NCBI GenBank assembly: GCA_012840485.1 | Contig: DULG01000004.1 | Coordinates: forward strand, 1-63,477 | Direction of reading: 5' to 3' | DNA length: 63,477 bases | DNA from: Clostridia bacterium | GTDB taxonomy: Bacteria > Bacillota > Thermoanaerobacteria > Thermoanaerobacterales > Thermoanaerobacteraceae | Shown: positions 3,108 through 45,319 of the stretch, piece after piece | Layout: each line of letters begins with the position of its first letter | Position numbering within the stretch: position 1 is the first letter of the stretch | Program-made: the position numbers and the translations under genes | The notes under the pieces: generated by a model | What the model was told of the DNA's origin: nothing | Database searches by the model: none | What the model saw: only the letters and a program-made list of their open reading frames with translations

Positions 3108-3137
3108 CTTTTTGCCCTCCATTTGTATGTTACCCTC

Positions 3138-25687: not shown

Positions 25688-25795
25688 TGGCAGAGTAGGT
25701 GTCTCGCGTAAAGTGACGGAGGATCGGACGTTGCCTTCGTACGAAAAGTCTACTATAAAAGTTAGACTTGCGGTGGGTCATCGCGTCTGCTGCCA
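25688..25795 (+). ncRNA. THF (tetrahydrofolate) riboswitch
   Basis: The folT-type riboswitch core is recognisable. The closing stem is TGGCAG (25688-25693) with CTGCCA (25790-25795). Inside are the conserved AGAGTAGGTG, GCGTAAAGTG, GGATCGGACGTTG and ACGAAAAGTCT blocks and the late GCGGTGGGTCATCGCGTCTG block. An extra internal hairpin (AAGTCTA with TAGACTT) extends one arm. It binds reduced folates and controls the folate transporter gene 72 bases downstream. Mutually exclusive pairing is possible: the 3' strand CTGCCAC (25789-25796) can also pair with GTGGCAG downstream, and a GAGCC...CTCCTT stretch (25802-25815) is complementary to the folT ribosome binding site AAGGAGGCTC. This suggests translational control. 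Confidence 0.92.
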
Positions 25796-25867: not shown

Positions 25868-26401
25868 ATGAAAAAATTTAACACTAGAGAACTTGTATTT
25901 TTAGCTTTGCTGGTAAGTCTCAATATAGTCCTGACTAGAATAGCCAGCATCAGAATTTCTATTGGAGGTATTGAAGGAATAAGAATAGGTTTTGGCGCTT
26001 TCCCAATAATTCTGGGAGGGATTATGTTTGGACCTACAGCTGGTGGAATTGTAGGGACTTTGGGAGACATAGTTGGATATTTCATCAATCCTATGGGACC
26101 CTATATGCCTCATTTTACATTCACGGCAGCTTTAATTGGGATTATACCCCCCATAATTTTAAAACCAATAAAAACCCTTATACCCTCATTTTGGCAACTG
26201 GTCATAGCTATTGGAATAGGTCAGCTTGTATCTTCTGTAATACTGGTACCTTATTTCATCCAATTGCTTTTCCATTTGTCCATGAAAGTTACATTACCCC
26301 CGCGAATTATTACTCAGATTATTCAAGTTCCTTTGTACGCATTATTTACGCGAATAATTTTGGATAAATTACATCTAGCCTTAAAATTTAAAGCAAACTA
26401 G
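25868..26401 (+). CDS. folT: Folate ECF transporter S component FolT
   Basis: A 177-residue membrane protein with about six hydrophobic segments. The ECF S-component pattern is clear: ELVFLALLVSLNIVLTRIASIRI at the start, then IRIGFGAFPIILGGIMFGPTAGGIVGTLGDIVGYFINPMGPYMPHF, typical of FolT. It binds folate outside the cell and delivers it to the shared EcfA/A'/T energising module, which is not encoded here. The ribosome binding site AAGGAGGCTC lies ten bases before the ATG. Control by the upstream THF riboswitch confirms the ligand class. Confidence 0.93.
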   Translation: MKKFNTRELVFLALLVSLNIVLTRIASIRISIGGIEGIRIGFGAFPIILGGIMFGPTAGGIVGTLGDIVGYFINPMGPYMPHFTFTAALIGIIPPIILKPIKTLIPSFWQLVIAIGIGQLVSSVILVPYFIQLLFHLSMKVTLPPRIITQIIQVPLYALFTRIILDKLHLALKFKAN

Positions 26402-28216: not shown

Positions 28217-28653
28217 TTGTTTTTATTTTACCTCACAAAGAAAATAAAAAAATAATTCCAGAAAAAATGAAGAAACATACTCGCAAAAAATATGAAAATG
28301 CCGTAAAAGGTATAAATACAATTGTGGACGTAATAGCAAGAGATTATTTTCATCCCAGTCTCCACGATAAACTAACAGAACTTGAACAGCAAAAAGTTGA
28401 AATAGAAATAAGATTAAAAGAAATAAACAGTTCACCCCACACTTCTTTTGTGACAGAAGCCAAAATAAGGGAATATCTTTTAAAAGACAAAGAGGTGTTG
28501 GAAGCGGGTGACCCTCAAAAAATCAAACAAATTTTACTAACACGTATAAATAAAATAACCGTCTACCCTGATAGAATTGAAGCCCATTTCAGGCTTTCGA
28601 TAGACGATACAGTTTGCGCATGGATGGTAGCGGCGAATCGCTCTCAATTATGA
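28217..28653 (+). pseudogene. C-terminal remnant of a large serine recombinase
   Basis: The frame is open from 28217; the first ATG is at 28267 and gives 128 residues. It holds the coiled-coil and C-terminal region typical of large serine recombinases (LTELEQQKVEIEIRLKEI, AKIREYLLKDKEVLEAGDP, ILLTRINKITVYPDRIEAHF). The catalytic domain and zinc ribbon are absent, so it is a decayed fragment of an integrative element, next to a decayed group II intron. The nearby holin/amidase pair may or may not have the same origin. Confidence 0.7.
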
Positions 28654-29060: not shown

Positions 29061-29861
29061 TTAACTATCGTCTAGAAAAATTTTTTCTAGCATACGTGCA
29101 ACACCTAATTTATCATTTGAGCTGGTAATAAAATCTACTTTTTCCTTTAATAAAGGAATTGCATTTTCAACTGCAATTCCGACTCCTACAGATTCAACCA
29201 TCTCAACGTCATTTACTCCATCCCCAAATGCCATAACTTGATCCATTGAAATACCCAAATAGTTACAAAGTAATTCTACAGCCACAGCTTTAGTTATATT
29301 TTTAGAATTAACTTCAAAATTATCATTTTCTATAATAAAGGTAAATTCATCTTTCAAAGGTTTAAACATTTCTAATGCGCTCTTAATACGTTCGGGAGTA
29401 TCATATACCACAATTTTTAAAGGATCTTTATTTAGATGAGAAAGTTTACCTTTCCCCACTTCTATAAAAGGAACCTTATGTATTTTTGAGAAAAGATATG
29501 TCTCCTCTATAGCCTCTTGAACATATAAACAATCATCCGCATAAAATTTTATATAATAATTATTTTCTTCTAAAATTTTAATAATCGGCTTAATTTTTCC
29601 TCTTGAAATTGGAAACGTGTAAAGTGGAGGTTGCCCTATACTTGATATATAAGCTCCATTATAGCAAATCACAGGAATTTTAATTCCCAACAATTTTGCA
29701 ATTGTACAGGTAGAACGAAATGTCCTACCTGTAGCTAATGTAACAAGGATTCCTTTCTTTTGTACTTTCTTTATTGTTGCTATTGTCTTCGGATGAAGAT
29801 TACTATTTGAATCTAATAAAGTCCCGTCAATATCAACTACCACAAGGCGAATATCCCGCAT
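29061..29861 (-). CDS. Cof-type HAD-superfamily phosphatase
   Basis: A 266-residue HAD hydrolase of the Cof subfamily: motif I VVDIDGTLLDS (nucleophile Asp and acid Asp), motif II TLATGRTF, motif III Lys in the second half, and motif IV MAFGDGVNDVEMVE. The C2-type cap lies between motifs II and III. Such enzymes dephosphorylate sugar phosphates in the cytoplasm. The start overlaps the stop of the aldolase gene by one base (TAATG), so the genes are coupled. It is the last gene of the glucosaminate-type operon and may relieve sugar-phosphate stress. Confidence 0.9.
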   Translation of the reverse strand: MRDIRLVVVDIDGTLLDSNSNLHPKTIATIKKVQKKGILVTLATGRTFRSTCTIAKLLGIKIPVICYNGAYISSIGQPPLYTFPISRGKIKPIIKILEENNYYIKFYADDCLYVQEAIEETYLFSKIHKVPFIEVGKGKLSHLNKDPLKIVVYDTPERIKSALEMFKPLKDEFTFIIENDNFEVNSKNITKAVAVELLCNYLGISMDQVMAFGDGVNDVEMVESVGVGIAVENAIPLLKEKVDFITSSNDKLGVARMLEKIFLDDS

Positions 29862-30580
29862 TATTCAACAACCCTTTTTATAATTGTCGTTAACTCTTCC
29901 ACATCCTCTATTCTTGTTAAACCTGTTGTTTTATCAATAATTGAAGTATAAACGTGAGGGATCACAGTTTGAATACCATTTTTCAAGCAAACTTCTAGAA
30001 CAGAAGGTAATGATTTTTTGTCAATTCCACCTGTTGGTTCAAAAATAGTTATACTGTGGTTGATACATGCTTTAACCATTTCCTCTACTTCTGCAAGCCG
30101 TTTATTTCCTTCTATTGGGAAAAACTTTACTGAAGGAACACCTATCTCCGCCAACATCGCTACTGCTAAATCACATGACACCATTTCTAAGTATTTTTCA
30201 CTAGTTGGTCCTGTTGAAATAAATACTTTTCCTGGTATACCAGAAGGTCTAATTAGAGCATTTACTATGGTATGTTCACTTTTAACTGCTTTTAATGCTC
30301 CCAAAGTATACCCTGCTGCCGTGAAAACTTGATTTACATGTGCGGGCTTAGTGGCAATAGCAACCTCCACTACCTTTTGCCATTGTTGTGGATCACCTGC
30401 ACCAAGTCCAATGGAAACAGGTATTCCTGCATTTTGAAATTCGAAAACCTTTTTAATCGCTTCTTCTGTAGAATTGAACTCTTTTGTCAAAATCCCAATA
30501 AATACTTTTCCTTCTGTTACCTCTACAATTTCTTTAGCATTCTTTAAATTCTTTGCTAATACATTTAATCTAACTTCCAT
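29861..30580 (-). CDS. dgaF: KDGP aldolase, DgaF family
   Basis: A 239-residue TIM-barrel protein of the DgaF family (2-dehydro-3-deoxyphosphogluconate aldolase of the D-glucosaminate pathway): GKVFIGILTKEFNS, PVSIGLGAGDPQQWQ, ALIRPSGIPGKVFISTGPTSE, SVKFFPIEGN (likely Schiff-base Lys) and IFEPTGGIDKKSL. It splits 2-keto-3-deoxy-6-phosphogluconate to pyruvate and glyceraldehyde 3-phosphate. It follows dgaE by 13 bases, the same order as in the Salmonella dga operon. Confidence 0.87.
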   Translation of the reverse strand: MEVRLNVLAKNLKNAKEIVEVTEGKVFIGILTKEFNSTEEAIKKVFEFQNAGIPVSIGLGAGDPQQWQKVVEVAIATKPAHVNQVFTAAGYTLGALKAVKSEHTIVNALIRPSGIPGKVFISTGPTSEKYLEMVSCDLAVAMLAEIGVPSVKFFPIEGNKRLAEVEEMVKACINHSITIFEPTGGIDKKSLPSVLEVCLKNGIQTVIPHVYTSIIDKTTGLTRIEDVEELTTIIKRVVE

Positions 30581-30593
30581 TTTTCACACCTCA

Positions 30594-31694
30594 TTATACT
30601 CTTAAAATTTCTTTTATTCGATTAACAATTATTTTTTCTTGCCCTGGAAGCAAAGGACGAGGATCAATACTTATAATGCCTAAATTTGCATAATGATTCC
30701 TAGTAAAAATTGCAGGTTCCCCTCTTTCTAATTGTTGTATAATTTCATGCGTTGAAATGTTTAATTTCTCTTCGTCAAATTTTAATTGAGCACGATAAAT
30801 TTTTCTTCCCGCTTCATCCTGCACAACCGAAGCAGTTATTCCATCGATATTTTGAAACTGATCAACTATCCATTGAACTTGCTGTAATTGTTTTTCAATG
30901 TTTTCTACTTTATTTTTATAAATCTCTAATGCAGAAATTAAACCCATAATTTGTTCTTTCCCAACTTTCATTGCCCTTCCAATACCCTTGTACTGCAAAC
31001 GACAAGCTTCAATTAGTTCTTTTTTTCCACAAATAAAACCTGAAGTAGGACCTTCTATAGCCTTACCGCCACTATATATTACAAGATCCGCGCCCATTTG
31101 AATATATTTCTGTATATCTTCTTCTGCAGCTGCATCTACAATTATTGGAATATTATTTTCTTTGCTAATTTCAATTATTTCAGGAAGAGATAACATACCT
31201 TTTTGAACAGCATGATGTGATTTTACATAGAAAATTGCAACAGTTTTTTCTGAAATTGCATCTATAATATGACTTTTTTCAACATAGTTTGTCTGGCCTA
31301 CTTCAACTATTTTACCTCCACCTAATCTAATCATTTGTAGTATAGAAGCTCCAAAATTAATCGAATGTCCTTTTTGGATGATAACCTCATTTCTCAAACC
31401 TTCACTATACGGTAACTGCTCAATAAGAGTTAAATTCTTCCCTGCAATTAAAGCAGCTACAGAAATTGCGATACCAGCAGCAGCACCTACTGTCGGGCAT
31501 GCATCTTCCGCCGTCGTAATTTCAGCAATTATTCTACCTGCTTTTAACATTAATTCTTGAACATCAACGTAATCTTGCGCAGCTTCAAACATTGCTTGTG
31601 CTACTTTCGTATCTACAGCACTGCCTCCCAAAGCAGTCATTTTACCGCTTGCATTTATAATCTGTTTTAAACCGTATTTTTGGTAAATACTCAT
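30594..31694 (-). CDS. dgaE: D-glucosaminate-6-phosphate ammonia-lyase, DgaE family (PLP)
   Basis: A SelA-like fold-type I PLP enzyme: YGLKQIINASGKMTALGGSA at the start, an ACPTVGAAAGIAISVAAL segment, AAAEEDI with the cofactor-binding Asp region (VDAAAEED) and the PLP Lys in YSGGKAIEGPTSGF. DgaE converts D-glucosaminate 6-phosphate to 2-keto-3-deoxy-6-phosphogluconate and ammonia. The chosen ATG has GGAGG eight bases upstream; the ATG five codons earlier contains that site. A hairpin separates it from the upstream membrane gene. In this locus the usual mannose-type PTS is missing, so the route by which its substrate becomes phosphorylated is unclear. Confidence 0.87.
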   Translation of the reverse strand: MSIYQKYGLKQIINASGKMTALGGSAVDTKVAQAMFEAAQDYVDVQELMLKAGRIIAEITTAEDACPTVGAAAGIAISVAALIAGKNLTLIEQLPYSEGLRNEVIIQKGHSINFGASILQMIRLGGGKIVEVGQTNYVEKSHIIDAISEKTVAIFYVKSHHAVQKGMLSLPEIIEISKENNIPIIVDAAAEEDIQKYIQMGADLVIYSGGKAIEGPTSGFICGKKELIEACRLQYKGIGRAMKVGKEQIMGLISALEIYKNKVENIEKQLQQVQWIVDQFQNIDGITASVVQDEAGRKIYRAQLKFDEEKLNISTHEIIQQLERGEPAIFTRNHYANLGIISIDPRPLLPGQEKIIVNRIKEILRV

Positions 31695-31713
31695 CACCAC
31701 AACCTCCATAAAA

Positions 31714-31735
31714 GCAGGCAGGTTAACCTGCCTGC
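31714..31735 (-). terminator. Intercistronic palindrome between the DUF4310 gene and dgaE
   Basis: A perfect 22-base palindrome built from GCAGGCAGG and its complement begins six bases after the DUF4310 stop and is followed by TTTT and then the dgaE ribosome binding site. It may partly terminate transcription or stabilise the upstream membrane-protein message. Confidence 0.7.
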
Positions 31736-31741
31736 AAATTA

Positions 31742-32398
31742 TTATTGAATTGGAAAGAAAACTCCCATTAACATCGCTCCAAGTATAGCTCCCCCTGCAA
31801 TTGGCTTTTTGTACGCATAAAAAACTGCAGCTCCAATAATAGCCCCTAAGCCTACTGGAATAGAAGCCATGACAGCAGAAATTACAATCAAAGGCCCTAA
31901 ATATCGTCCAGCAGCATTACCTGCTCCCATCATAATATCTGCTCCAAATGTAGAGTCTATCTTATCAACTGTAAATTTTCGAATAGAAATTATTACAGCT
32001 CCAATTATAGCTCCAAGAATAGCACCCGTTAGTAAGGCTAAAGGAAACGATTCAAGCGGGGCAGTAAAGCCTGCTCCAAGCATCAACGCTGGTATTCCAA
32101 TTCCTACTCCTGTTTGTAAAGAACCACCAATATCTAAAATTCCTACCAATGGACCTTCTATAACACGTGCGAATAAAAAAGCTCCTCCAAAGGCAGCTGC
32201 GGCGCCAAATCCGCCTCCCTTAAGTCCAGCTTCTAGTAAAGCAACAACAGCCAAGTCATTGAATGCCCCAACATGATATGTGTAATATAAATGAGTTCCA
32301 CCAAAAATACCAGAAGCAAGAGCCATCACAAATACAATAAATCCCCATTCTGAATACCAGAAACCAAGCTTTTTATCTTCTATTTTTATATCTTCCAT
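31742..32398 (-). CDS. DUF4310 family membrane protein
   Basis: A 218-residue integral membrane protein with about six Gly/Ala-rich hydrophobic segments, including a GLKGGGFGAAAAFGGAFLFARVIEGP region and DIMMGAGNAAGRYLGP. The family is uncharacterised. It is always found with DUF4311, DUF4312 and the SFCGS protein, as here. Two Gly-rich multi-pass proteins plus two small soluble partners resemble the component count of a PTS or other substrate-specific carrier. Substrate inferred: a sugar acid or amino-sugar acid processed by the DgaE and DgaF enzymes encoded next to it. The start is 2 bases after the DUF4311 stop. Confidence 0.8.
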   Translation of the reverse strand: MEDIKIEDKKLGFWYSEWGFIVFVMALASGIFGGTHLYYTYHVGAFNDLAVVALLEAGLKGGGFGAAAAFGGAFLFARVIEGPLVGILDIGGSLQTGVGIGIPALMLGAGFTAPLESFPLALLTGAILGAIIGAVIISIRKFTVDKIDSTFGADIMMGAGNAAGRYLGPLIVISAVMASIPVGLGAIIGAAVFYAYKKPIAGGAILGAMLMGVFFPIQ

Positions 32399-32400
32399 TT

Positions 32401-33183
32401 TTATTTCACCACCATTCCAAAGAATTTATGGAGATTAATTAACCATTGGGGTATTCCAATATTCATGCTTTTCAGTAATGCTACATCGAAACCCCGGAAA
32501 AATCCACTTAATACAAACAAAAGAATAACAGTAGTTACTAAAGTTTTTGTAATTTTATTCCAACCAGAATCATCTACACCCTTTCCTATCAAAATTCCCA
32601 AAACAATACCTGGTACAGCATTCCCCATTATCAAATGTGCTAATCCACCTAAAATTGTTCCCCAAATACCTGTCCGTTTTCCTGCATCAAGTGCTGCCAA
32701 CCAGAATATGATGGGCATAACAGGATTGATTAGCCAATTGGCGGCCGGTACTAAAACTTTTGTCGCAACATTTTGTAACGATTGTGGAACTGCCGCTGCT
32801 GTTGAATTTAAAAGAGGTATTAATATCACTCCTACGATAGCACCAGCTACTGCCATTTTTTTAGGATCGTGTAAGGTTTCTTTCACGTTTCTATTTTTTG
32901 TTAAAAGTAATGCCGTAGCCCAGTTTGGAATAATTCTATGTTCAACATCTTGTGTTAATGCACCAGCTCCTATGACCGTTGCCCATGAGTTAAATAAAAA
33001 TCCCAAACCAAAAGAAAAATGCGAAATTGGATCACCTTGACAAGCATTTAATTCTCCTAATGTTCGAAATGCTCCCATCGCCTGAACTGTAGGAGCATGA
33101 AACATTCTTGCAGCACCTGCTCCCACTCCAAAGCCTACCAAAGCCCCAATAATTATTGATTTTAAGATTATCACGATAGTCAT
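32401..33183 (-). CDS. DUF4311 family membrane protein
   Basis: A membrane protein of about 260 residues with roughly seven hydrophobic segments (IIIGALVGFGVGAGAARMF first) and conserved polar stretches such as GELNACQGDPISHFSFGLGF and QDVEHRIIPNWATALLLTKN that may line a substrate path. I prefer the ATG eight bases after GGGAG; a GTG three codons upstream overlaps that site. Its presumed partner DUF4310 is encoded directly downstream. Function unknown; probably the second membrane subunit of an unrecognised carrier. Confidence 0.8.
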   Translation of the reverse strand: MTIVIILKSIIIGALVGFGVGAGAARMFHAPTVQAMGAFRTLGELNACQGDPISHFSFGLGFLFNSWATVIGAGALTQDVEHRIIPNWATALLLTKNRNVKETLHDPKKMAVAGAIVGVILIPLLNSTAAAVPQSLQNVATKVLVPAANWLINPVMPIIFWLAALDAGKRTGIWGTILGGLAHLIMGNAVPGIVLGILIGKGVDDSGWNKITKTLVTTVILLFVLSGFFRGFDVALLKSMNIGIPQWLINLHKFFGMVVK

Positions 33184-33211
33184 CCCAAACACTCCCTTCT
33201 ATTCCTTTACT

Positions 33212-33547
33212 CTAAATTTTTAAAAATTGTTTTAGTAACGTAGGCGTATCATCTATTTCTTCAAATTTTATTTGCGAAATTTCTATCACTCCTACCCTCA
33301 CTGTTATCATAGCTTTAACCTTATACAAATTACGCTTTCGCGGGAAAAACAGCCCTAAAAATCTTTCAGTAAATACGATCTTCTTTGCCTCTACAACCTC
33401 AATATCTTTTGGTTCAATTCTAATTATTAAATCTTTAATCTCATATGAAAGTTTATTCCTTATTTGTGAAAACATCTTATTAAATACTTCTTCAATAGTT
33501 TCACCTTTTTCTTCAAATCTTAATGTACGATCAAACTCTTTATACAT
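33212..33547 (-). CDS. DUF4312 family small protein
   Basis: A 111-residue soluble protein, two strand-helix-strand units by appearance (RTLRFEEKGETIEEVFNKMFSQI ... KAMITVRVGVIEISQI). It overlaps the SFCGS gene by 8 bases and precedes the two membrane proteins, so the four are co-produced. The family has no known activity; it could be a soluble subunit of the carrier. Confidence 0.78.
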   Translation of the reverse strand: MYKEFDRTLRFEEKGETIEEVFNKMFSQIRNKLSYEIKDLIIRIEPKDIEVVEAKKIVFTERFLGLFFPRKRNLYKVKAMITVRVGVIEISQIKFEEIDDTPTLLKQFLKI

Positions 33548-33920
33548 CTTTATTCTCTCTCTTAATTAATTTTATATATTCTTCTGTTAATCTCCTGCCA
33601 AGTTCCTCAATGTCCATAAAGCCGAAACCAAGGACTCTTTTACCTTCTCTTAACGCAGTAATACCTGCTTCAATAGAACGAAGTCCATACTCTACTGGAT
33701 AGCCATATTTTGTTTGAGCAGTTAAAGCACCAGCCCCTCCACTTCCGCAAAAAGCAATTCCAAAATCAGCATTTTCCTTATTCATTACATCACCAACTTT
33801 CATATCTGCGCCTACACCTGGAATCACAATTGCAATTCCACCTGCTTCTTCAACACCTTTTGCCACTTTTTGTCCTTTCCCGAGTCGGTCACCAATTACC
33901 ACCTTCACTTTATCATGCAT
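33540..33920 (-). CDS. Glycine-rich SFCGS-family protein
   Basis: A 126-residue alpha/beta protein. A strand and Gly turn (VVIGDRLGKGQKVAKGVEEAGG) is followed by PGVGADMKVGDV and the family-defining FCGSGGAGALTAQTKYG, with a single Cys in a Gly-rich loop. The size, one-Cys loop and position beside membrane subunits recall PTS EIIB proteins, whose Cys is phosphorylated. That is an analogy from appearance, not an established relation. It overlaps both neighbours by 8 bases. Confidence 0.8.
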   Translation of the reverse strand: MHDKVKVVIGDRLGKGQKVAKGVEEAGGIAIVIPGVGADMKVGDVMNKENADFGIAFCGSGGAGALTAQTKYGYPVEYGLRSIEAGITALREGKRVLGFGFMDIEELGRRLTEEYIKLIKRENKDV

Positions 33921-34311
33921 TATTTTTTCCTCCTACACATTTAATTTTAGACGCTTCAAAATGAACCGCTAATAAAAATATTTCTGTTTCGTCTAATTCT
34001 TTCTTAAACCTTTGCACATATTTTTGCAAAACTTCAATACTCAATTTTTTTACCTCTGGTGAAATTTCATTCCACAACCCTGGTTCAACAGGTGGTAATT
34101 TTTCATTTGTTTCTAATCTCTTAATAAAAGCCAATAAATGATATCCTATTAACACCAAACGATTAAACGAAAAAGAAAATTTACCATCTTTTTCATTTAA
34201 TTTAACTAATCTTAATAACTCAAATAGTTCCTCTCTCTCTTTTTCTGTTATCTTTTCTTTCTTAGAAATCTCTTCTATTACTTCTTTTAATGTTTCCTTA
34301 ACTTCATCCAT
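33913..34311 (-). CDS. Stand-alone PRD-like protein
   Basis: A 132-residue helical protein resembling a single PTS-regulation domain: SFSFNRLVLIGYHLLAFIKRLE with a His in the first helix pair and ETEIFLLAVHFEASKI with a second His. No DNA- or RNA-binding domain is attached. Such an isolated PRD could accept phosphate from HPr or EIIB-type proteins and act as a signal or a carrier subunit. It overlaps its neighbours on both sides by 8 bases. Confidence 0.65.
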   Translation of the reverse strand: MDEVKETLKEVIEEISKKEKITEKEREELFELLRLVKLNEKDGKFSFSFNRLVLIGYHLLAFIKRLETNEKLPPVEPGLWNEISPEVKKLSIEVLQKYVQRFKKELDETEIFLLAVHFEASKIKCVGGKNNA

Positions 34312-35440
34312 TGCACTTCAAAACCTTTCCAGATTTGATTGTATATAATGGTAACAAGAACTTCTCTGCAACTATTTCTTCACCTTCAGAATCAACAAGC
34401 TTAATAGGAGATTGGTTCCATTTTAAAATAGAAATATCTGCTATGTTTCCTTCTTTAATACTGCCAATTTCATGTTCCATACGAAGTACCTTAGCTGGCA
34501 TACTTGTAGTAGCTTTTATTACTTCTTCTAAAGAATATCCTAAGGCAATGAATTTAGTCATGGTAGTAACTAAACTATAAACAGGCCCAGTTATATTATC
34601 CAGATAAATGTCTGTGCTAATAGTATGAGGAACAATTCCTAAATCTCTAGCACGTTTCATTACCTTAAAACTAAAACTCGAAGTACCATGCCCTACATCA
34701 AATAGAACCCCTCTTTTTAAAGCCTTCTCTGCTTCCAATATTAACTTTCCATCCTCATCTAATATCCCTCCTTTCTTTCCGTGGAAAGCGTGAGTAACTA
34801 CATCGCCTGCTTCTAATAAACTTAAAATATCATTAAGATCTGGTGGTGGATTGCCAATATGGACCATAAGAGGAAGCTTAACTTTTTGAGCAAATTTTTT
34901 AGCAATTTCAAGTGGTTTGATTCCATTGTTTTTTACAACTGAAGAACTCATCCTAACTTTTATCCCACGAATTACTTGACCATGCTCTTTAATTACTTCT
35001 TCTAGTTTTTCTAATTCTATGTTTTTTAAATCAGCTAATTCTGAAAGCCCTTCACATAACCCAGGACTAGCAACATTAATCCATAGTAAAACACGAGTAA
35101 TATTTTTTTTAACTACTTCATCAATAAAAGAGTTAATACAACTAACTCCTGTACTTCCGGCATCTACTACAGTTGTAACTCCTTTATTAACTCCAACATG
35201 ATCTGCAGAAATTCCCAATACGGTTTTAATTGGAAATACATGTACATGAAGGTCAATTAATCCTGGTACTACTATGCAATCGGAAACATCTAACACGTTC
35301 TCTGTGGAATATTCCGAAAAAGTATTAGGCTGGTAAATACCTAAAATTTTCCCGTTATCTATGGCTATATCAAACTTGCCTTTCATTTTATTACCAGGAT
35401 CTATTACATAACCGTTCTTAACAAGTAAATCAATCTTCAT
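34304..35440 (-). CDS. Amidohydrolase/deacetylase family metalloenzyme
   Basis: A 378-residue dihydroorotase/adenine-deaminase-like amidohydrolase: VVPGLIDLHVHVF (first metal His pair), RGIKVRMS (Lys that is usually carbamylated), LMVHIGNPP (His), THAFHG (His), FDVGHG and STDIY (Asp). Members of this subgroup are annotated as amidohydrolase/deacetylase and often sit beside DgaE. A likely task is removal of an acyl or amide group from an imported amino-sugar acid before the ammonia-lyase step; this is inferred from context. Confidence 0.85.
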   Translation of the reverse strand: MKIDLLVKNGYVIDPGNKMKGKFDIAIDNGKILGIYQPNTFSEYSTENVLDVSDCIVVPGLIDLHVHVFPIKTVLGISADHVGVNKGVTTVVDAGSTGVSCINSFIDEVVKKNITRVLLWINVASPGLCEGLSELADLKNIELEKLEEVIKEHGQVIRGIKVRMSSSVVKNNGIKPLEIAKKFAQKVKLPLMVHIGNPPPDLNDILSLLEAGDVVTHAFHGKKGGILDEDGKLILEAEKALKRGVLFDVGHGTSSFSFKVMKRARDLGIVPHTISTDIYLDNITGPVYSLVTTMTKFIALGYSLEEVIKATTSMPAKVLRMEHEIGSIKEGNIADISILKWNQSPIKLVDSEGEEIVAEKFLLPLYTIKSGKVLKCNG

Positions 35441-35456
35441 TTACTATTTTCTCCTC

Positions 35457-37370
35457 TCATTTAAAATATTGCAAAATAGCTATTATTTCGCTTTCTGGAA
35501 TATTAATTTCATTTTCTTTTAATATTTTCTCTAGTCGTTCACGCATTTCAGAAGAATAATTAAATTTATAATTGTAATCCGTATATTCAAAATCATAAAA
35601 TGAATTAAAAGCAATTCTACCAGCTAAAAGTAAAATATGGAGTTTTAAACCTTCTGCTCGTTCTTCAGTAAGATTATCCTTAAATTCTTGAATAATTTTT
35701 TGGCTTAATACATACCCTTTAAAAATAATATTTTGTACAAATTGTTCAGCAATCACTGGTTCAAAATAATTTTCTCCCTCAACCGAGGAACAAAACAACT
35801 CTGTTGAGGAATTTTTTTGTAATTTATTAGTTATTTTATGAATCCGTAGTATATCATCTTCTGTAGGTATATTATGAACTTTTATAAAAGGAATGGTTAT
35901 ATCTTCTATCGGAACTACACTAATAATCAAGTCTGGCTTTTTTAATTCTATCTGTCTTTTTAAAGTAAATATTGAACTTGTTCCAATGATTTTTAATTCA
36001 GGAATTTCATTTTCAAGCATTGTTTTTAGTAATTGAGCTGTCCCTCTACCTGTATTGCACACAATTAATGCCTTAAATAAATAGTTTTTTTTCTGTCTCT
36101 CATAAGCAGCTTGAAAATGCAATACAATATAGGCTAAATCAGCATCCGTGAAATAAATATCCTCCTCCTTAAATACCTCATAAACACATTCTTTAATCAA
36201 GTGAAACATAGTAGAAAAAGAGCTAATAACTGCACCTAGTATAGGATTAGGGTCTATAATACCAAATCTAAATTTCACAACTTTATCTTTTAGATGAACC
36301 AATAGCGCATTTAATAATTGATCATCTTTTTCGAAGTTAATTTTTGTTTTTATTGTCATCCTTTTAATTAACTCTATTGTTTTTTCATATACATCAATTT
36401 CTCTATACTCGGAATTTTTTATATCATCCAATAGAGGCTGTACTATTTCTATCGTAGGAAGACTTATATATATGAGTTCAGATTCGGTAAAAATAAAATT
36501 CAAAAAAGGAGTCCCATTTAATACTTCTTTAAAAATTTGATATAATTTTTGCATTTTTAATTGTTGAATATTAATCGTTGTCATAAAATCTAAGTTTTCA
36601 TTTTTCTTCCTTTTTAAACGTTGAATTGTAATTATAAGACGAATAAATATATTAATGATTATTCTATCGGAAAGCATTATTTCCAACTCATTTTCTATTC
36701 TGGAAATAATCAAACGTATCTTAGAAAAAACATATTCCAGTTCCTGTTTAGATAAAAAAGACACACTTTGGATTAATAAAAATTTTTCTTCCTTTCCAAC
36801 TCTTTCCTTAATTACATTCATAATAATTTTGTTCATTTCTTTTTCTTCCATAGTACTCTGAACAAGATATTCTAGAGCAAGCCTCCGATAAAATTCAGAA
36901 CCTCTTATTCTTATCCCTTGTCGAGTCCTTTCTATCACAAGATGCCTTTGTTTTAAATCTTTTTCTATTATGTTTAAATCTCTCACAATTGTATTTCGAC
37001 TAACTTCAAACTTTTCAGCTAAATCGCTAATTTTGTAAAATGAATCATTCACTAACAATTCTAAAGTAAGCCGTCTAATTCTCTCTGGACGCTCAAAAAA
37101 ACCATATAATCCCTCATTTAAACTTAAATCTCTTTTTAACTCATTACTAACTCGAGTATTTTTATCTCTTTCATCTATCCATATTCCTACATTGGGTTTT
37201 GAATAAAGATTAATATCATACTTTTTTAACCAATCTCTGAGTAAATCAAGGTCATATTTTACTGTACGTTCACTTACTTGAAACTCACGTGCAATATCTT
37301 TAATCCGCAGGGGTTTTGATGACTCTAATAACATACTAAAAATTTTATTTACACGGCCAGGAAGTAACAA
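35457..37370 (-). CDS. BglG/LicR-type transcriptional activator with PRDs and EIIB domain
   Basis: A 637-residue regulator. An N-terminal HTH (IKDIAREFQVSERTVKYDLDLL) and a second HTH (ISDLAEKFEVSRNTIVRDLNII) occupy the first 160 residues. Two PRDs follow, with His in LLVHLKDKV and YIVLHFQAA. An EIIB-like domain begins at about 420 (ALIVCNTGRGTAQLL, phosphorylatable Cys). The C-terminus carries a third PRD-like region (EERAEGLKLHILLLAGRIAFN ... EIIAILQYF) where EIIA is more common. The TTG start is preceded by GGAGGG. It heads the glucosaminate-type operon and likely activates it in response to PTS phosphorylation. Confidence 0.88.
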   Translation of the reverse strand: MLLPGRVNKIFSMLLESSKPLRIKDIAREFQVSERTVKYDLDLLRDWLKKYDINLYSKPNVGIWIDERDKNTRVSNELKRDLSLNEGLYGFFERPERIRRLTLELLVNDSFYKISDLAEKFEVSRNTIVRDLNIIEKDLKQRHLVIERTRQGIRIRGSEFYRRLALEYLVQSTMEEKEMNKIIMNVIKERVGKEEKFLLIQSVSFLSKQELEYVFSKIRLIISRIENELEIMLSDRIIINIFIRLIITIQRLKRKKNENLDFMTTINIQQLKMQKLYQIFKEVLNGTPFLNFIFTESELIYISLPTIEIVQPLLDDIKNSEYREIDVYEKTIELIKRMTIKTKINFEKDDQLLNALLVHLKDKVVKFRFGIIDPNPILGAVISSFSTMFHLIKECVYEVFKEEDIYFTDADLAYIVLHFQAAYERQKKNYLFKALIVCNTGRGTAQLLKTMLENEIPELKIIGTSSIFTLKRQIELKKPDLIISVVPIEDITIPFIKVHNIPTEDDILRIHKITNKLQKNSSTELFCSSVEGENYFEPVIAEQFVQNIIFKGYVLSQKIIQEFKDNLTEERAEGLKLHILLLAGRIAFNSFYDFEYTDYNYKFNYSSEMRERLEKILKENEINIPESEIIAILQYFK

Positions 37371-37875: not shown

Positions 37876-38865
37876 TCATTTAGGTGTCAATTCAGCCGCT
37901 TGACATATAGCTTCTTTCATACTTTTCTCATCTGCAATTCCTTTCCCTGCAATATCAAACGCTGTACCATGATCAACACTTGTTCTAATAAAAGGAAGCC
38001 CTACAGTAATATTTACCCCCGTCTCAAATCCTAAAACTTTTATAGGAATGTGCCCTTGGTCATGATACATAGCTACAACAATATCAAATTCACCACGAAT
38101 AGCTCTAAAAAATACTGTATCTGCAGGTAACGGGCCTGTCACTTTGATGTTTTCTGTTTGTGCTTTCTGAATAGCGGGAACAATTTTTTCCTCTTCTTCT
38201 CCATATCCGAATAATCCATTTTCCCCTGCGTGAGGATTTATTCCACAAACTGCTATTCTTGGATTAGAATAACCTGCTTTTTTCAATGTGTTATATGCTA
38301 GTTTTATAACTGTATATACCCTTTCAGGATTAATCATTTTTACAGCATCTACTAATCCAACATGCGTTGTCACATGAATAACTTTTAACCTTGGCGCACT
38401 CAACATCATTGCAAAATCTGTTGTATTCGTAAGTTTTGCTAAAATCTCTGTTTGACCAGGATACATATAACCAGCTTTATGTAATGCTTCTTTGTTAAGA
38501 GGTGCTGTACTTATTGCATCAATTTTTTTGTCTTTCGCAAGTTCAATTGCTTTTTTAAGATATTTAAAGGCAGCATCACCTGCTTTTTCTGATAATCGTC
38601 CATATGGTAAATCTATTGGAAGTAAATTCAGATCTATGCAATTAACTACTCCAAATTTAAATTCTGCTTCTTCGACGTTTTGAATTGCCTTGATAAGAAG
38701 TCCCGTCTTTAGAAAAGATTCAGCACGTTGTAACATTTTTACATCACCAATTACAACTGGTTTGCTAATTTCGTAAATTTGGGTGTCACTTAGCGCTTTC
38801 ATTATTATCTCTGGTCCTACGCCGGCTGCATCTCCCATTGTAATTCCAATCAGTGGTTTTACCAT
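37876..38865 (-). CDS. pdxA2: PdxA2: D-threonate/D-erythronate 4-phosphate dehydrogenase
   Basis: A 329-residue PdxA-family dehydrogenase: PLIGITMGDAAGVGPEI at the start, STAPLNKEALHKAG, HVTTHVGLVDA (metal His), CGINPHAGENGLFG (metal His) and AMYHDQGHIPIKVL (third metal His). PdxA2 proteins paired with the DUF1537 kinase oxidise and decarboxylate the 4-phosphate of D-threonate or D-erythronate to dihydroxyacetone phosphate and CO2. It lies one base after the kinase gene. True PdxA (vitamin B6) is less likely in this context. Confidence 0.9.
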   Translation of the reverse strand: MVKPLIGITMGDAAGVGPEIIMKALSDTQIYEISKPVVIGDVKMLQRAESFLKTGLLIKAIQNVEEAEFKFGVVNCIDLNLLPIDLPYGRLSEKAGDAAFKYLKKAIELAKDKKIDAISTAPLNKEALHKAGYMYPGQTEILAKLTNTTDFAMMLSAPRLKVIHVTTHVGLVDAVKMINPERVYTVIKLAYNTLKKAGYSNPRIAVCGINPHAGENGLFGYGEEEEKIVPAIQKAQTENIKVTGPLPADTVFFRAIRGEFDIVVAMYHDQGHIPIKVLGFETGVNITVGLPFIRTSVDHGTAFDIAGKGIADEKSMKEAICQAAELTPK

Positions 38866-38866
38866 A

Positions 38867-40165
38867 TTAATTCTCTCCTTTCAAAAAACGGATTATATTA
38901 ATAAGAGTCTCTTCTGTTCCGAAGGCACCTGCTTTTGTGATTGTTAATAAATTTCTAAAACCTATAAGCTTGCCTATTGGAATACCAGTTTCTAATTCTT
39001 TAATTAACTTTATACCTCTTGCACCAAGATATTTACATACAGCTTTTGCTGTATCACCACCTGTTAAAATTACACCACCTAATTGAACTTCATTTATAAT
39101 TCGGTTTGAAATATAACCAAGCGCGTCTACCATTCGATGTGAGACTTCTTCTGATGAAATTTTGAGTAGTTCTCCCACTTCTTTTGTTTTTTGAACTATT
39201 TCAGGCGATGAATCAACAAAAAATGCTACATCTTTATTCCTTTTTAATGCTTTTATAATTTCATCATAACAACGATCAATTTCTTCTTTATTTTCTTCTT
39301 CATTTAAAATTTTTAATGGATTCATTTCAATACCAATTATATTTGGTTGTGTAACAAGTAATGAAATTTGTTGCCTTGTTATTTTGGAAATACTACCTGA
39401 CACAACTAAAATAGGATTTTCAGTCAAAACCAAATTCTCAGAAATTATAGTTGAAGAGAGAAAAGAAATTTTATTTGCTAACAAATTAGCTAAACCTGCA
39501 GAGCCAACCCATAAAATTCTATAATTGCTTGTGGTAAGATAATTTAATATAATTTCCAAATCATCGTCTGTTTCAGAATCAAATACAATTAGCTGAACAT
39601 TTTTCTTTAACAGTTTAACAATTTCACTTTTTATATCATTCTCTCCGGAACGAATTGTATTTATAGTTATTAAACTCGATTTTCTTTTTGTTTGATAAGA
39701 CAAAAGAGATAAAATATTTGACTCTTTCACAGGACTTTTTGGATCTTCTGAAATTTCTGTTTGGTCAATTGGTTTTCCATATAAAAAGTGTCTTCCCTCG
39801 ACAGTAGTTCTTCCCATTTGCGGAAAAGCCGGTGCTATAACAGCAAAATCAAAATCAAAAACATCCATGATTGCATCAATTTCAATTCCTAAGTTCCCTC
39901 TAAGTGTAGAATCTATTTTTTTATAAATCTGAGTATATCCTATATTTTTTAATTTTTGAGATGTTTCCTTTACTTTTTGATACGCTTCAAATGGTGAAAT
40001 AGCACGGCTGTCGGTATCAATAACAATTATATCAGTATCTTTTGAATCTTCATATAAGTTATCAATATCAAATATAACAGAGGTCTTTAAACCTTTTTTC
40101 GCAAATTGAACACCTGTATCAGAAGCACCAGTAAGATCATCTGCGATAATTGCTATTTTATCCAT
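38867..40165 (-). CDS. Four-carbon acid sugar kinase (DUF1537; D-threonate/D-erythronate kinase)
   Basis: Begins MDKIAIIADDLTGASDTGVQFAK, the hallmark of the DUF1537 kinases, with IVIDTDSRAI following. The C-terminal nucleotide-binding half has LVVSGSISKITRQQ and GVILTGGDTAKAVCKYLGA. It phosphorylates a four-carbon acid sugar at O4; D-threonate and D-erythronate cannot be told apart here. I use the ATG preceded by AGGGAGTGG; the upstream 14 codons have no family counterpart. It works with PdxA2 immediately downstream and the permease upstream. Confidence 0.9.
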   Translation of the reverse strand: MDKIAIIADDLTGASDTGVQFAKKGLKTSVIFDIDNLYEDSKDTDIIVIDTDSRAISPFEAYQKVKETSQKLKNIGYTQIYKKIDSTLRGNLGIEIDAIMDVFDFDFAVIAPAFPQMGRTTVEGRHFLYGKPIDQTEISEDPKSPVKESNILSLLSYQTKRKSSLITINTIRSGENDIKSEIVKLLKKNVQLIVFDSETDDDLEIILNYLTTSNYRILWVGSAGLANLLANKISFLSSTIISENLVLTENPILVVSGSISKITRQQISLLVTQPNIIGIEMNPLKILNEEENKEEIDRCYDEIIKALKRNKDVAFFVDSSPEIVQKTKEVGELLKISSEEVSHRMVDALGYISNRIINEVQLGGVILTGGDTAKAVCKYLGARGIKLIKELETGIPIGKLIGFRNLLTITKAGAFGTEETLINIIRFLKGEN

Positions 40166-40209
40166 AATTTTACCACTCCCTGTTGGAATTTTTACATTTA
40201 CACCCATTT

Positions 40210-40250
40210 TATGTAACCTCTCAAGTTAAAGAAACTTGAGAGGTTACATA
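40210..40250 (-). terminator. Intercistronic hairpin between kdgT and the acid-sugar kinase
   Basis: A perfect 18-base-pair inverted repeat (arms 40210-40227 and 40233-40250) with a five-base loop, 17 bases after the permease stop and about 45 bases before the kinase start. There is no T-run, so a role in message stability or unequal expression is more likely than full termination. Confidence 0.75.
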
Positions 40251-40267
40251 ACTAATTGCATAATAAA

Positions 40268-41230
40268 CTAGACCGTTTTATTGTTTAATATACCAACTCG
40301 TTTTGCCCACCAAGAAGTTACAATAGGTACCAAAATTGCCGTTACTACTACAGAAGAGGCTACTATAGCTGTAGCAGCAGGAGCTACGGGTGCATAAACG
40401 GAATTAGCTGCTGCTACTATAGCTGGTACTGCCGCAGCATTCCCAGCAGTTGATGCTGCAGCTAAACCTGCTATTCCATTGCCTCCTGTTAAAACATCGG
40501 CAGCAAATAATGCTATTCCAGTAACGATAACTACTGCTATGCCTACTAAAATACCAACCAATCCGGCTTTCCAAACATTTAATAAATTTAGTCCAGCTCC
40601 AAGTGCAAAAGCAAAAAATGGTATTAATACAGGTACTGCTCTTCCTAAAAATTCTCGAAGGTCTTTATCTAAATTTCCTAAAATCATACCTATTATAAGG
40701 GGCAAAATTGCTCCTACTAGCATTTGCCAAGGAAAAGCCGACAGACCTACAACTCCTAGTGTTACCATCGTAAAGAATGGACCAGATTCCAAACTCATGA
40801 TAGAATAAGCAGCTACATCTTCTTTTTTACCAAACTGTCCCATTAAAGCCATGTATAAACCACCGTTTGTATCATTCATAGAAGCTACAATTGCAAGTAC
40901 AGAAAGGCCCGCAAATAGTCCTGAATCAATCATCCCTTCTTTCAGGAATCTGGCAGCTATAAAGCCAACAAGAGCAGCTATCGTTATTTTTGTTATCCAT
41001 AGGGCTCCGCCTTTTTTGAGTATATAAGGGGTAGATTTAAAATCAATTGTAGCACCCATGCATACATAAAAAACTGCTAAAATAGGCAAAGCACCAGTTA
41101 ATAAAGCACCTGTAAACGATCCAAATGTTTTTGCAGCATTTGGGAAAAGAGTATTAATAATTGCACCTAAAAAGAGAGGGATGATCATCATACCTCCGGG
41201 AACACGTTCCATAGATGCTTTGATCTTCAT
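40268..41230 (-). CDS. kdgT: 2-keto-3-deoxygluconate permease family transporter KdgT
   Basis: A 320-residue membrane protein with about ten hydrophobic segments and the KdgT signatures: [27 protein letters not shown] at the start, [35 protein letters not shown] and a Gly/Ala-rich C-terminal region. KdgT is a proton symporter for 2-keto-3-deoxygluconate. Here it precedes a four-carbon acid-sugar kinase, so the actual substrate may be D-threonate, D-erythronate or a related acid. A sigma-54 promoter lies 45 bases upstream. Confidence 0.88.
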
Positions 41231-41274
41231 TTAAACTCCTCCTTCTCAAATATCTAATTTCACTAAAGAAATAA

Positions 41275-41291
41275 AGCAAATCTTATGCCAA
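41275..41291 (-). promoter_or_regulatory. Sigma-54 promoter of the kdgT operon
   Basis: On the minus strand TTGGCATAAGATTTGCT matches the -24/-12 consensus (TTGGCAC, five bases, TTGC) with the invariant GG and GC separated by exactly ten bases. It lies upstream of kdgT and directly downstream of the gene for a sigma-54 activator, which supports function. Confidence 0.85.
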
Positions 41292-41359
41292 CCTAAAAAC
41301 GCATTATTTTCAATATTATTTCTCTATCATTTTTTATTTTGCAACACTTATATAAAGTA

Positions 41360-41400
41360 AAATAAGCATATTGATGCATATTGCAACAATATGCTTATTT
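41360..41400 (-). terminator. Terminator hairpin overlapping the activator stop codon, possible activator site
   Basis: AAATAAGCATATTG and its complement CAATATGCTTATTT form a 14-base-pair stem that includes the TAA stop of the sigma-54 activator gene and ends in a T-rich stretch. The loop repeats the theme (ATGCATATTGCAA). At 80-125 bases upstream of the -24 element, the same palindromes could serve as the enhancer site for the activator. Another TTGCAACA lies at 41338-41345. Confidence 0.65.
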
Positions 41401-43275
41401 TCTTTTTAATTTTCTCCACAAAGTGCTCCTATTTATACCAAGTATCTTAGCAGCTTTAGTTAAATTTCCATTACATTTACTAACTATGTTATCTATATAA
41501 ATAGTCTCAATTTCTTTTAAACTCATAAACGATGATAGTAGCTCAACGTGTTTGTGCGCTCTATTGTATTCTGTTTCTTCAATTTTTACATCTTTCAATT
41601 CAATTATATTCCCTGTACTTAAAATTACAGCTCTTTCAATTATTCCTTTTAATTCTCGTACATTACCCTTATAATAATACTCATTTAAATATTCAATAGC
41701 CATGTCATATATATCTTCTATGTTCTTACCGTATTTCTGAGAATATTTTTTGGCAAAATATCTTGCAAGTAAAGCTATATCTTCTCGCCGTTGATTTAGA
41801 TCAGGGATAGTCAAGGTTAGTATATTTATTCTATAATACAAATCTTCTCTAAATTTACCTTCATCAACCATTTTCTTAATGTTTTTGTTTGTTGCAGAAA
41901 TTATCCTAACATTAACAGGTATTACTTTATCGTCGCCAATCCTCATCACTTCTCCTTCTTCTATTACTCTTAAAAGCCTTGCTTGATACTCAAGGGGAAT
42001 TTCACCAATTTCATCGAGAAAAATAGTTCCCCCGTGAGCCAACTCAAACAATCCAGGTTTACCATTTTTACGAGCCCCAGTAAAAGCTCCTTCCGCATAT
42101 CCGAATAATTCACTCTCGAGTAGATTTGGAGGTATAGCCGCACAATTTATTGCTACAAACGGACCACTTGCTCTATTACTCGCATTATGGATACTTTGAG
42201 CAAAAAGTTCTTTACCTACTCCCGATTTACCAAGAATTAGCACAGGAGAATCAACAAGCGCATATTTTTTTGCTCTCCTAATACATTCTTCCATTTGAGT
42301 ACTTTTATATAAGATATCTTTGAAGGTATATTTTGCTATAAAACCTTTTTTTGTCAATTCATATCTTATCTTTTTTTCTAATTCCTGAATTTGTGTTACA
42401 TCTTGAAATGTTGCTACAACACCTTCTACTTTATTGTCTACGATTATTGGTACTCTATTTGTAACTATTTTTTGATTTTTTATATCTTGCAACTCACCTA
42501 TTTCAGCATAACCACTTTTTAAGACTTCCAACATTCTGGTATTTGGTATAATTTCCTCTACCCTTTTCCCTAATACATCTTTAGCTGCTAAATTAAATAT
42601 TTTTTCAGCCATTGTATTAAATGTTGTTATATACCCTTCTTTATCAATTGAGATAATTCCATCATGTACAAAGTCCATTATTATCCTTATTTTTTCACTT
42701 TTCATTTTTTCTAACTTCGATACTTCCAAAATTCTTTGTGTTTCTTGAATAGCATCTATTATTGCTTCCTTCCCTGATGTTATAAAATAGCTTTTATACC
42801 CATATTTTTTTGCGCTTTTATGTCCTATAGCATCTCCTACAATAACAGTAGCCCCTTTTTTAATTAATTCCAATACTAATTCTGGAGCTCTTTTTTCCGA
42901 ATCAAAAACCACTTTTTCAATATTAAGCTTTAATAACTCTGCAATCGTTTCACTTCTATCAACAATATTTTCATAACCAGCTATACCAATCTTACCTTTG
43001 TAATCTATTAAATCTTTGAATGCCCTCAGTATATCAAATGAGCTAATTTTAATTTCAACAACAGGAATATTTACTGCTTCTTTTATCATTTTATATGTAC
43101 CACCACGAGATATAATAATTTGGGCCCCATTCTTGACACATTCTTTTGCAACCTCTACACCTTCACTTAAATCTCCCATTAGTATGTCAACATTAGTAAA
43201 TTTATTCTCATTAACAACTTTTTTTGCTACTTCAGCTAAATCTTCAAAAGGTGCAATTAAAACTATATCTTTCAT
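41395..43275 (-). CDS. Sigma-54-dependent activator with PrpR-type sensor domain
   Basis: A 626-residue regulator. A PrpR-N-like domain (about 1-190; MGDLSEGVEVAKECVKNGAQIIISRGGT) is followed by a PAS domain (about 200-310; HDGIISIDKEGYITTFN). The AAA+ domain has Walker A GKSGVGKELFAQSIH and the sigma-54 contact GAFTGA (as EGAFTGARK), with Walker B GGTIFLDEIGE. The C-terminus is a Fis-type HTH (GNLTKAAKILGINRSTLWRKLKRK). It should activate the sigma-54 promoter just downstream, probably in response to a small metabolite bound by the N-terminal domain. Confidence 0.92.
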   Translation of the reverse strand: MKDIVLIAPFEDLAEVAKKVVNENKFTNVDILMGDLSEGVEVAKECVKNGAQIIISRGGTYKMIKEAVNIPVVEIKISSFDILRAFKDLIDYKGKIGIAGYENIVDRSETIAELLKLNIEKVVFDSEKRAPELVLELIKKGATVIVGDAIGHKSAKKYGYKSYFITSGKEAIIDAIQETQRILEVSKLEKMKSEKIRIIMDFVHDGIISIDKEGYITTFNTMAEKIFNLAAKDVLGKRVEEIIPNTRMLEVLKSGYAEIGELQDIKNQKIVTNRVPIIVDNKVEGVVATFQDVTQIQELEKKIRYELTKKGFIAKYTFKDILYKSTQMEECIRRAKKYALVDSPVLILGKSGVGKELFAQSIHNASNRASGPFVAINCAAIPPNLLESELFGYAEGAFTGARKNGKPGLFELAHGGTIFLDEIGEIPLEYQARLLRVIEEGEVMRIGDDKVIPVNVRIISATNKNIKKMVDEGKFREDLYYRINILTLTIPDLNQRREDIALLARYFAKKYSQKYGKNIEDIYDMAIEYLNEYYYKGNVRELKGIIERAVILSTGNIIELKDVKIEETEYNRAHKHVELLSSFMSLKEIETIYIDNIVSKCNGNLTKAAKILGINRSTLWRKLKRK

Positions 43276-43495
43276 AAAGATCCTCCTTTTATAATTTTAG
43301 AAAATTCTCAAAAAAATTATTTTTTGTTATTCTTTATTGCTTGTAGTTAATTATAAATCCTATATAGTAATAATACAAGCATAAGTCATATAAAAAGTAT
43401 CTTCTAAAGTTTCTTAATCGAGTAGGAGCTGAATAATTATTTTATTCAGCGTCCTCTCACACCACCGTACGTACCGTTCGGTATACGGCGGTTCA

Positions 43496-44900: not shown

Positions 44901-45319
44901 AAGATTTCCAAAACCTCCTAACGTTCGGTCCTTCCTTATCTATTCATGTCTAGATAAGTACTATGACCTCTGCTGACTTCTCAAGGTTCAGCCATACATC
45001 ACTGCATGGGTTGTCACTTCAGATTTTACTCCCATGACTTATCCTTGAGACCTCCCCGGGTAAGAACGATAACTTTCATCTCATATATCTGCCAGATTTA
45101 CTATATGGGATTCGGGTAGTGTTGGACTTCGTTTTGTTACGCAAACTCATCCATCCCAATTCAGCCTCTTATCTGGTTCTTGTTCATCAGACCGAGATTT
45201 TGCCTTAAGCTTCCTTCAGATTCCACCTCACGATGGACACCCTTGCTCTTGGCTAGTGGTTCCCACTACCAAGCCCACAGCGGACTTTCACCGCCTAGTT
45301 ATCGCCCATGCCGGGCGCA
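44901..45319 (-). other. Structured 5' region of the group II intron (domains I-III)
   Basis: These 419 bases precede the maturase start and contain no gene of their own. The GC-richer, pairing-rich sequence (AGGCGGTGAAAGTCCGC near the 5' end, and CCTCACGATGG/CCATCGTGAGG-type blocks) is expected of the intron RNA core. Confidence 0.7.

Follow-up and report, generated by a model that had tools for sequence, protein, structure and literature searches.

How does substrate reach the DgaE- and DgaF-family enzymes of an operon that encodes no Enzyme II (EII) of the phosphoenolpyruvate (PEP)-dependent phosphotransferase system (PTS)? The question is raised by a 63,477-nucleotide stretch of DNA from Clostridia bacterium (GenBank assembly GCA_012840485.1, contig DULG01000004.1, positions 1 to 63,477 of the forward strand; here, the window), where an initial annotation had proposed that the genes for a PRD protein, an SFCGS protein, DUF4312, DUF4311, and DUF4310 form an undescribed PTS-like uptake system. 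We confirmed ten open reading frames (ORFs), all on the minus strand of this contig from Thermoanaerobacter, a heat-loving bacterium, and assigned the window proteins with Pfam and NCBIfam searches. The operon runs in the order regulator, amidohydrolase, PRD, SFCGS, DUF4312, DUF4311, DUF4310, DgaE-family lyase, DgaF-family aldolase, and HAD phosphatase, with 8-bp overlaps at the amidohydrolase/PRD, PRD/SFCGS, and SFCGS/DUF4312 junctions and a spacing of 2 bp between DUF4311 and DUF4310. A Pfam search of the operon ORFs found no PTS EII gene, the mannose family included, so that the gene set, the overlaps, and the missing EII were all borne out. Sequence comparisons support well a functional coupling of the five-gene block to the PTS; on balance, the block itself probably both imports a sugar acid and phosphorylates it, standing in for an EII with nonhomologous parts.

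We scanned 84,980 species genomes, which yielded at least 490 relatives of DUF4311, and read the 79 best-scoring loci, whose hosts include Bacilli, Enterobacterales, Negativicutes, and Streptomyces. The order PRD-SFCGS-DUF4312-DUF4311-DUF4310 was kept in nearly all of them, and this recurrence is far beyond chance. The exceptions were an amidohydrolase gene placed after the PRD (L049), enzyme genes placed after the PRD (L054 and L057), a locus without a separate PRD (L073), and one where DUF4312 was not detected (L090). The genes for the amidohydrolase, DgaE, DgaF, and the regulator flank the block on either side in variable order. Since four loci (L022, L042, L064, and L073) carry the regulator and the block with no adjoining DgaE or DgaF, the block is a separable unit. 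DUF4311 is uncommon, scoring above the cutoff in 6 of the 398 genomes of a phylum sample. Brevibacillus daliensis (L015, 1820 to 13305) has two blocks in tandem, with DgaE-DgaF after the second only.

The block is tied to the PTS by its neighbors. An HPr gene lay beside the cassette in 20 of the 79 loci, 8 of which also had an Enzyme I (EI) gene; G159 has both in addition, and examples of these assignments were confirmed by Pfam. The arrangements differ among lineages, of which at least four acquired them independently: HPr, often with EI, lies upstream of the regulator in Paenibacillaceae, 14 to 24 bp downstream of DgaF in Brevibacillus and one Anoxybacillus-labeled genome, and over the last 4 bp of DgaE in Streptomyces, while G159, a fourth lineage, has DgaF-HAD-HPr-EI. 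These are additional copies, the Bacilli genomes having 4 to 6 HPr genes each, Streptomyces 2, and the EI-bearing Paenibacillus genomes 3 to 4 EI genes. The HPr states require at least four changes on the DUF4311 tree, some branches of which are poorly supported, and simple arithmetic (about five HPr genes in a 6-Mb genome) gives any one locus a chance of about 1% of having an HPr gene no more than 7 kb away. Furthermore, of 54 genomes with the cassette, 53 had EI and only a metagenome bin did not, versus 33 of 101 in a phylum sample.

Residue conservation and gene fusions point the same way. Across 48 stand-alone PRD sequences, only His58, Arg65, Glu110, and His117 were invariant; both histidines were present in 78/78 ungapped sequences, even with PRDs just 17 to 39% identical to that of the window. 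Cys58 of SFCGS was kept in 80/80 sequences, and basic residues of the protein are invariant too. The PRD is naturally fused to SFCGS in one case (L006, genome G274) and to the C terminus of the regulator in another (L073, Vagococcus allomyrinae; PRD E = 1e-36). The genome with the PRD-SFCGS fusion has a TAG codon interrupting DUF4311 (L006/L175), by either decay or sequencing error. In the window's regulator, described beforehand as an activator with PRD and EIIB domains, we found a pair of PRDs followed by an EIIB-like domain (PTS_IIB, E = 1.5e-4), with His359 and His418 conserved and Cys438 kept less strictly (57 of 77 ungapped relatives).

The pathway enzymes supply a further line of evidence. 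The phylum sample held 16 DgaE-family genes, and we fetched the flanks of those without the block. A PfkB-family kinase gene directly followed DgaF in 5/5 amidohydrolase-DgaE-DgaF operons lacking the block (L164 to L168). It also followed DgaF in L034 and L035, where the block stands apart with its own regulator and HPr, and it was absent from the remaining 62 block-linked runs (Fisher's test, P of about 1e-7, uncorrected for relatedness). Another locus (L170) has an FGGY kinase alongside DgaE-DgaF and a sodium-solute symporter, an arrangement resembling a chitin oxidation pathway (PMC9537276). On the simplest interpretation, it is the block that provides the phosphorylated acid. The residues of block-linked and kinase-linked DgaE proteins hardly differ, which would be consistent with, rather than proof of, a lyase that always meets a 6-phosphate; with Thr/Ser25 and minor positions as the only differences, we rejected these residues as a direct readout of a phosphorylated substrate. 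Block-linked DgaE proteins have a median identity of about 44% to 7lc0. The identification of the window's enzymes as DgaE and DgaF held at the level of family (TIGR01437 and PF07071) and not of equivalog: since both score below the NCBI equivalog cutoffs (442 versus 600 and 289.6 versus 300 bits, respectively), "DgaE-DgaF family" is the safer name.

What the block proteins look like bears on how they might act. Our predicted model of SFCGS (pLDDT, 92.8; pTM, 0.87) matched RpiB/LacAB-fold isomerases in all of its top 27 Foldseek hits in the PDB (E values down to 1e-4, probability 1.00, TM 0.6 to 0.7), and no EIIB occurred among the 50 matches listed. An hhalign comparison with EIIB was not significant either, and we therefore rejected SFCGS as an EIIB homologue, a fold with which the initial annotation had wished to see it compared. 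The RpiB model of Pfam matches one SFCGS gene (G055, E = 7e-5), and a profile alignment places Cys58, weakly, at the RpiB catalytic cysteine. SFCGS thus shares with RpiB/LacAB isomerases a predicted fold and a cysteine in a Gly-rich loop, and differs from them in being shorter, in its association with membrane proteins and a PRD, and in belonging to a pathway without an isomerization step. An enzyme fold unrelated to transport, which had been held beforehand to speak against a transport system, was found by half: the fold is that of an isomerase, yet RpiB folds bind phosphosugars. We propose that SFCGS is a second phosphocarrier or a phosphosugar-binding subunit, a phosphocysteine on a non-EIIB fold being possible.

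DUF4311 and DUF4310 each have several hydrophobic segments. The model of DUF4311 was of moderate quality (pLDDT, 77; pTM, 0.61) and gave no PDB match below E = 2, so that the suggested resemblance to solved EIIC or EIID structures did not appear in this moderate model; its fold would be either new or poorly predicted. Neither membrane protein matched the PTS families of Pfam, and profile searches for solved relatives of DUF4310, DUF4311, DUF4312, and SFCGS returned none that was credible.

A related pair of soluble proteins occurs beside a different membrane protein in the yhfS-yhfZ cluster of Escherichia coli (YhfT, YhfU/DUF2620, and the PRD protein YhfY). SFCGS is homologous to YhfU (hhalign, 92.6%, E = 5e-7, with the cysteines aligned), and the stand-alone PRD matches that of YhfY (hhalign, 97%, E = 7e-11). 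Both systems place a stand-alone PRD with conserved histidines beside a membrane protein, although the second of these histidines is missing from E. coli YhfY and the yhf enzymes and regulator differ from those of the block operon. Profile comparison detected no sequence similarity between YhfT and DUF4310 or DUF4311. The idea that DUF4311 and DUF4310 are halves of YhfT, or relatives of each other, was rejected on the same profile evidence, an N-terminal alignment by eye not being borne out. The order PRD-YhfU-YhfT recurs in Bacillota, and the fact that the PRD and cysteine protein pair accompanies two different membrane parts argues for a portable energizing or phosphorylating module. The window's own genome has a second system of this kind, PRD-YhfU-YhfT, on contig C85 (L102, match at 2511 to 3770), with an internal TAA stop in the YhfT match. 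E. coli also gave a subthreshold match to DUF4311.

Taking these observations together, we infer the following order of phosphotransfer, transport, and substrate. Phosphate would pass from PEP to EI, to HPr, and to a histidine of the stand-alone PRD, in the place of EIIA, and then to Cys58 of the RpiB-fold SFCGS, in the place of EIIB, which would hand it to the substrate as this passes DUF4311/DUF4310; DUF4312 would be an accessory. The combination of the amidohydrolase with DgaE and DgaF leads one to expect an N-acyl-2-amino-2-deoxy-aldonate as the substrate, N-acetyl-D-glucosaminate, derived from oxidized chitin, being the obvious natural one; the substrate is probably this compound or a relative. 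Uptake would deliver a 6-phosphorylated N-acyl-2-amino-2-deoxy-aldonate, most likely N-acetyl-D-glucosaminate-6-phosphate, from which the amidohydrolase, proposed here to be an N-acyl amino-sugar-acid (phosphate) deacylase, would take off the acyl group. The DgaE-type lyase would then strip ammonia to give 2-keto-3-deoxygluconate-6-phosphate (KDG-6-P), which DgaF would cleave to pyruvate and glyceraldehyde-3-phosphate, and the PRD/EIIB regulator would sense the phosphorylation state of the relay. MupG and PTS genes beside some related operons hint at wall-derived (peptidoglycan) amino sugars in certain species: a PTS EIIC and MupG precede amidohydrolase-DgaE-DgaF in L071 (11603 to 14345, family checked) and in L164 (2213 to 4904, assigned by length and position), and MupG, a PTS EIIBC, and an SIS-domain protein lie beside these genes in L167 (9137 to 13677, family confirmed).

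Several points weigh against transport and phosphorylation by the block. The 79 loci are the top-scoring matches and no random sample, taxonomy confounds the enrichment of EI, and most cassettes, that of the window among them, have no dedicated HPr or EI. Where present, HPr could serve the regulator alone, which it adjoins in L022 and L042, and a KDG kinase could be encoded elsewhere in the genome. Cys58, in a protein of predicted RpiB/LacAB structure, could be catalytic and not phosphorylated. DUF4310 and DUF4311 have no detectable kinship to EIIC/EIID or to any known transporter, and the case for transport therefore draws on membrane prediction and context. These points leave room for DUF4310/DUF4311 as a secondary or other transporter that the PTS merely regulates, with the acid entering unphosphorylated, a housekeeping kinase acting on it, and HPr phosphorylating the PRD and the regulator in the manner of known PTS-controlled systems. 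HPr and EIIB are known to regulate PRDs, and the domains of the operon's regulator, the regulator-PRD fusion, and the un-EIIB-like SFCGS all fit such a scheme. We nevertheless regard it as rather unlikely, since it does not account for a kinase present without the block and absent when the block is linked, for the invariant cysteine and basic residues of SFCGS, for the PRD-SFCGS fusion, or for a dedicated EI besides HPr.

The fold of SFCGS and its cysteine, set in the loop that holds the catalytic cysteine in RpiB, would also suit a sugar-phosphate isomerase-like enzyme, in which case the block would be metabolic enzymes and membrane proteins with no relay. Conversion of glucosaminate to KDG-6-P requires no ketol isomerization, though, and the PRD-SFCGS fusion fits poorly; moreover, the unrelated YhfT repeatedly has SFCGS-like YhfU and a PRD as neighbors in a setting of other enzymes, so that the pair follows membrane proteins and not one pathway. 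We therefore consider this improbable. A sensory or regulatory complex, in which the PRD, SFCGS, and the membrane proteins sense a ligand that another carrier imports, would make use of PRD and EIIB domains as signaling modules, and other permeases are encoded nearby (for example, a KdgT-like gene at 40268 to 41230). Against it, no other transporter was conserved alongside the cassette in the 79 loci, two conserved membrane proteins with three soluble ones would be unusual for a sensor, and the missing kinase is left unexplained; it appears very improbable. PTS-coupled uptake, which the initial annotation had put forward, is supported more strongly than was possible for that annotation, by the dedicated HPr and EI, the invariant PRD histidines and SFCGS cysteine, the fusions, and the absence of the kinase, with transport and substrate phosphorylation by the block as our interpretation of these. 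The features of the operon are listed in Table 1.

Table 1. Operon features in window coordinates, in order of transcription
Feature	Position	Strand	Evidence and proposed role
Regulator: two helix-turn-helix domains, two PRDs, EIIB-like domain, C-terminal PRD-like region	35457..37370	-	Pfam, conservation
Amidohydrolase/deacetylase, EF_0837 type (PRK09237)	34304..35440	-	Families; nearest solved chains 8wzy, 2ics
Stand-alone PRD	33913..34311	-	Pfam, E = 4e-6; proposed phosphocarrier, phosphate from HPr~P
SFCGS protein	33540..33920	-	Gly_rich_SFCGS, E = 3e-61; predicted RpiB/LacAB fold, Cys58 in Gly-rich loop
DUF4312, small soluble subunit	33212..33547	-	Pfam, E = 7e-24; Pro46, Glu61, Arg70 invariant
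DUF4311, integral membrane protein	32401..33192	-	Pfam, E = 9e-121; proposed channel subunit
DUF4310, integral membrane protein, about six predicted helices	31742..32398	-	Pfam, E = 1e-98; proposed channel subunit
9-bp perfect GC-rich stem-loop in the 32-bp DUF4310-DgaE gap	31714..31735	-	Such sites no more numerous than in shuffled sequence
DgaE-family pyridoxal phosphate ammonia lyase	30594..31709	-	TIGR01437, E = 4e-150; nearest solved D-glucosaminate-6-phosphate ammonia lyase 7lc0
DgaF-family KDG-6-P aldolase	29861..30580	-	E = 3e-80; PF07071 matched
Cof-type HAD phosphatase	29061..29861	-	Family search

The stem-loop possibly marks a border, at the mRNA level, between the transport and enzyme genes. 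No catabolite repression (cre) sites above chance were found near the operon. We assign the Cof-type HAD phosphatase to the operon because a HAD gene also follows DgaF in L012, L013, and G159, the first two being 98% identical relatives. Phosphatases recurrently accompany the cassette: a small HAD phosphatase gene lies near it in L048 (family checked), L051, L041, L039, L080, and L037, following DgaF in most such Bacillus-type loci, and the Cof-type HAD is the window's counterpart.

Elsewhere in the window, the minus-strand cluster at 37876 to 43275 presumably encodes, as named from the sequences, a PdxA2-like dehydrogenase, a DUF1537-type kinase, a KdgT-like permease, and a sigma-54 activator, and probably serves a sugar-acid pathway of its own. 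Several group II intron matches (Rfam; 43417 to 45237, minus strand) lie upstream of the gene for the sigma-54-type activator (41395 to 43275). A tetrahydrofolate riboswitch (Rfam; 25689 to 25794, plus strand) lies just upstream of a 177-amino-acid membrane protein ORF (25868 to 26401), probably a folate uptake component, and a 128-amino-acid ORF (28267 to 28653, plus strand), judged by eye, resembles a serine recombinase in its C-terminal part and is perhaps a remnant.

Compared with what is on record, the gene set is uncharacterized rather than unseen. Its families are already catalogued as hypothetical under TIGR03577 to TIGR03583, named after EF_0829-EF_0839 and AHA_3910-3917, so that the earlier description of the system as undescribed stands for its function and not for its genes. 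The window's operon is one instance of this cassette, with identical gene families in conserved order; its proteins score above the curated cutoffs for TIGR03577, 03579, 03580, and 03581 and match TIGR03578, 03582, and 03583 below them. The EF_0829-EF_0839 cassette is recorded only as conserved hypotheticals, and a literature search found no functional work on DUF4310, DUF4311, DUF4312, SFCGS, or the E. coli yhf genes; the PTS coupling, the RpiB fold, the linkage to HPr/EI, and the anti-association with the kinase are new here.

The PTS permeases known so far belong to just a few EII families. We tentatively suggest a new EII class, though the odds are somewhat against it, with a PRD for EIIA, an RpiB-fold cysteine protein for EIIB, and DUF4311/DUF4310 of new fold for EIIC/EIID, and with yhfT-yhfU-yhfY as a second branch that has another membrane part. 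If so, a system fed by EI and HPr yet built from none of those families would represent an additional EII class, PRDs could be phosphocarriers in uptake, beyond gene control, and seven "conserved hypothetical" families in hundreds of genomes of gut and environmental bacteria would gain a function. The orphan yhf cluster of E. coli would become testable, and a phosphorylating route for N-acetylglucosaminate from oxidized chitin would be indicated.

Two described pathways come close to that of the operon. In D-glucosaminate use by Salmonella (Miller et al., 2013, cited in PMC9529869), a mannose-family PTS, DgaABCD, yields D-glucosaminate-6-phosphate, on which the DgaE ammonia lyase and then the DgaF aldolase act. 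The window's operon shares with it the lyase and aldolase families, the lack of a kinase, and an uptake proposed to yield the 6-phosphate; it differs in having PRD-SFCGS-DUF4312-DUF4311-DUF4310 in place of the mannose-type EIIA/B/C/D, plus an amidohydrolase and the PRD/EIIB regulator. The ong cluster of Pseudoalteromonas prydzensis, an oxidative chitin pathway, likewise deacetylates N-acetylglucosaminate and then deaminates the product toward KDG-6-P (PMC9537276). There, however, a sodium-solute symporter imports N-acetylglucosaminate, the intermediates are unphosphorylated, and KdgK gives the phosphate (PMC9537276), whereas our operon has no kinase and a PTS-linked block. Measured against a classical PTS EII, the block lacks homologous EIIA, EIIB, and EIIC(/EIID) domains, the sole EIIB-like match being in the regulator; the tie to EI and HPr that marks such systems is present, on genomic evidence.

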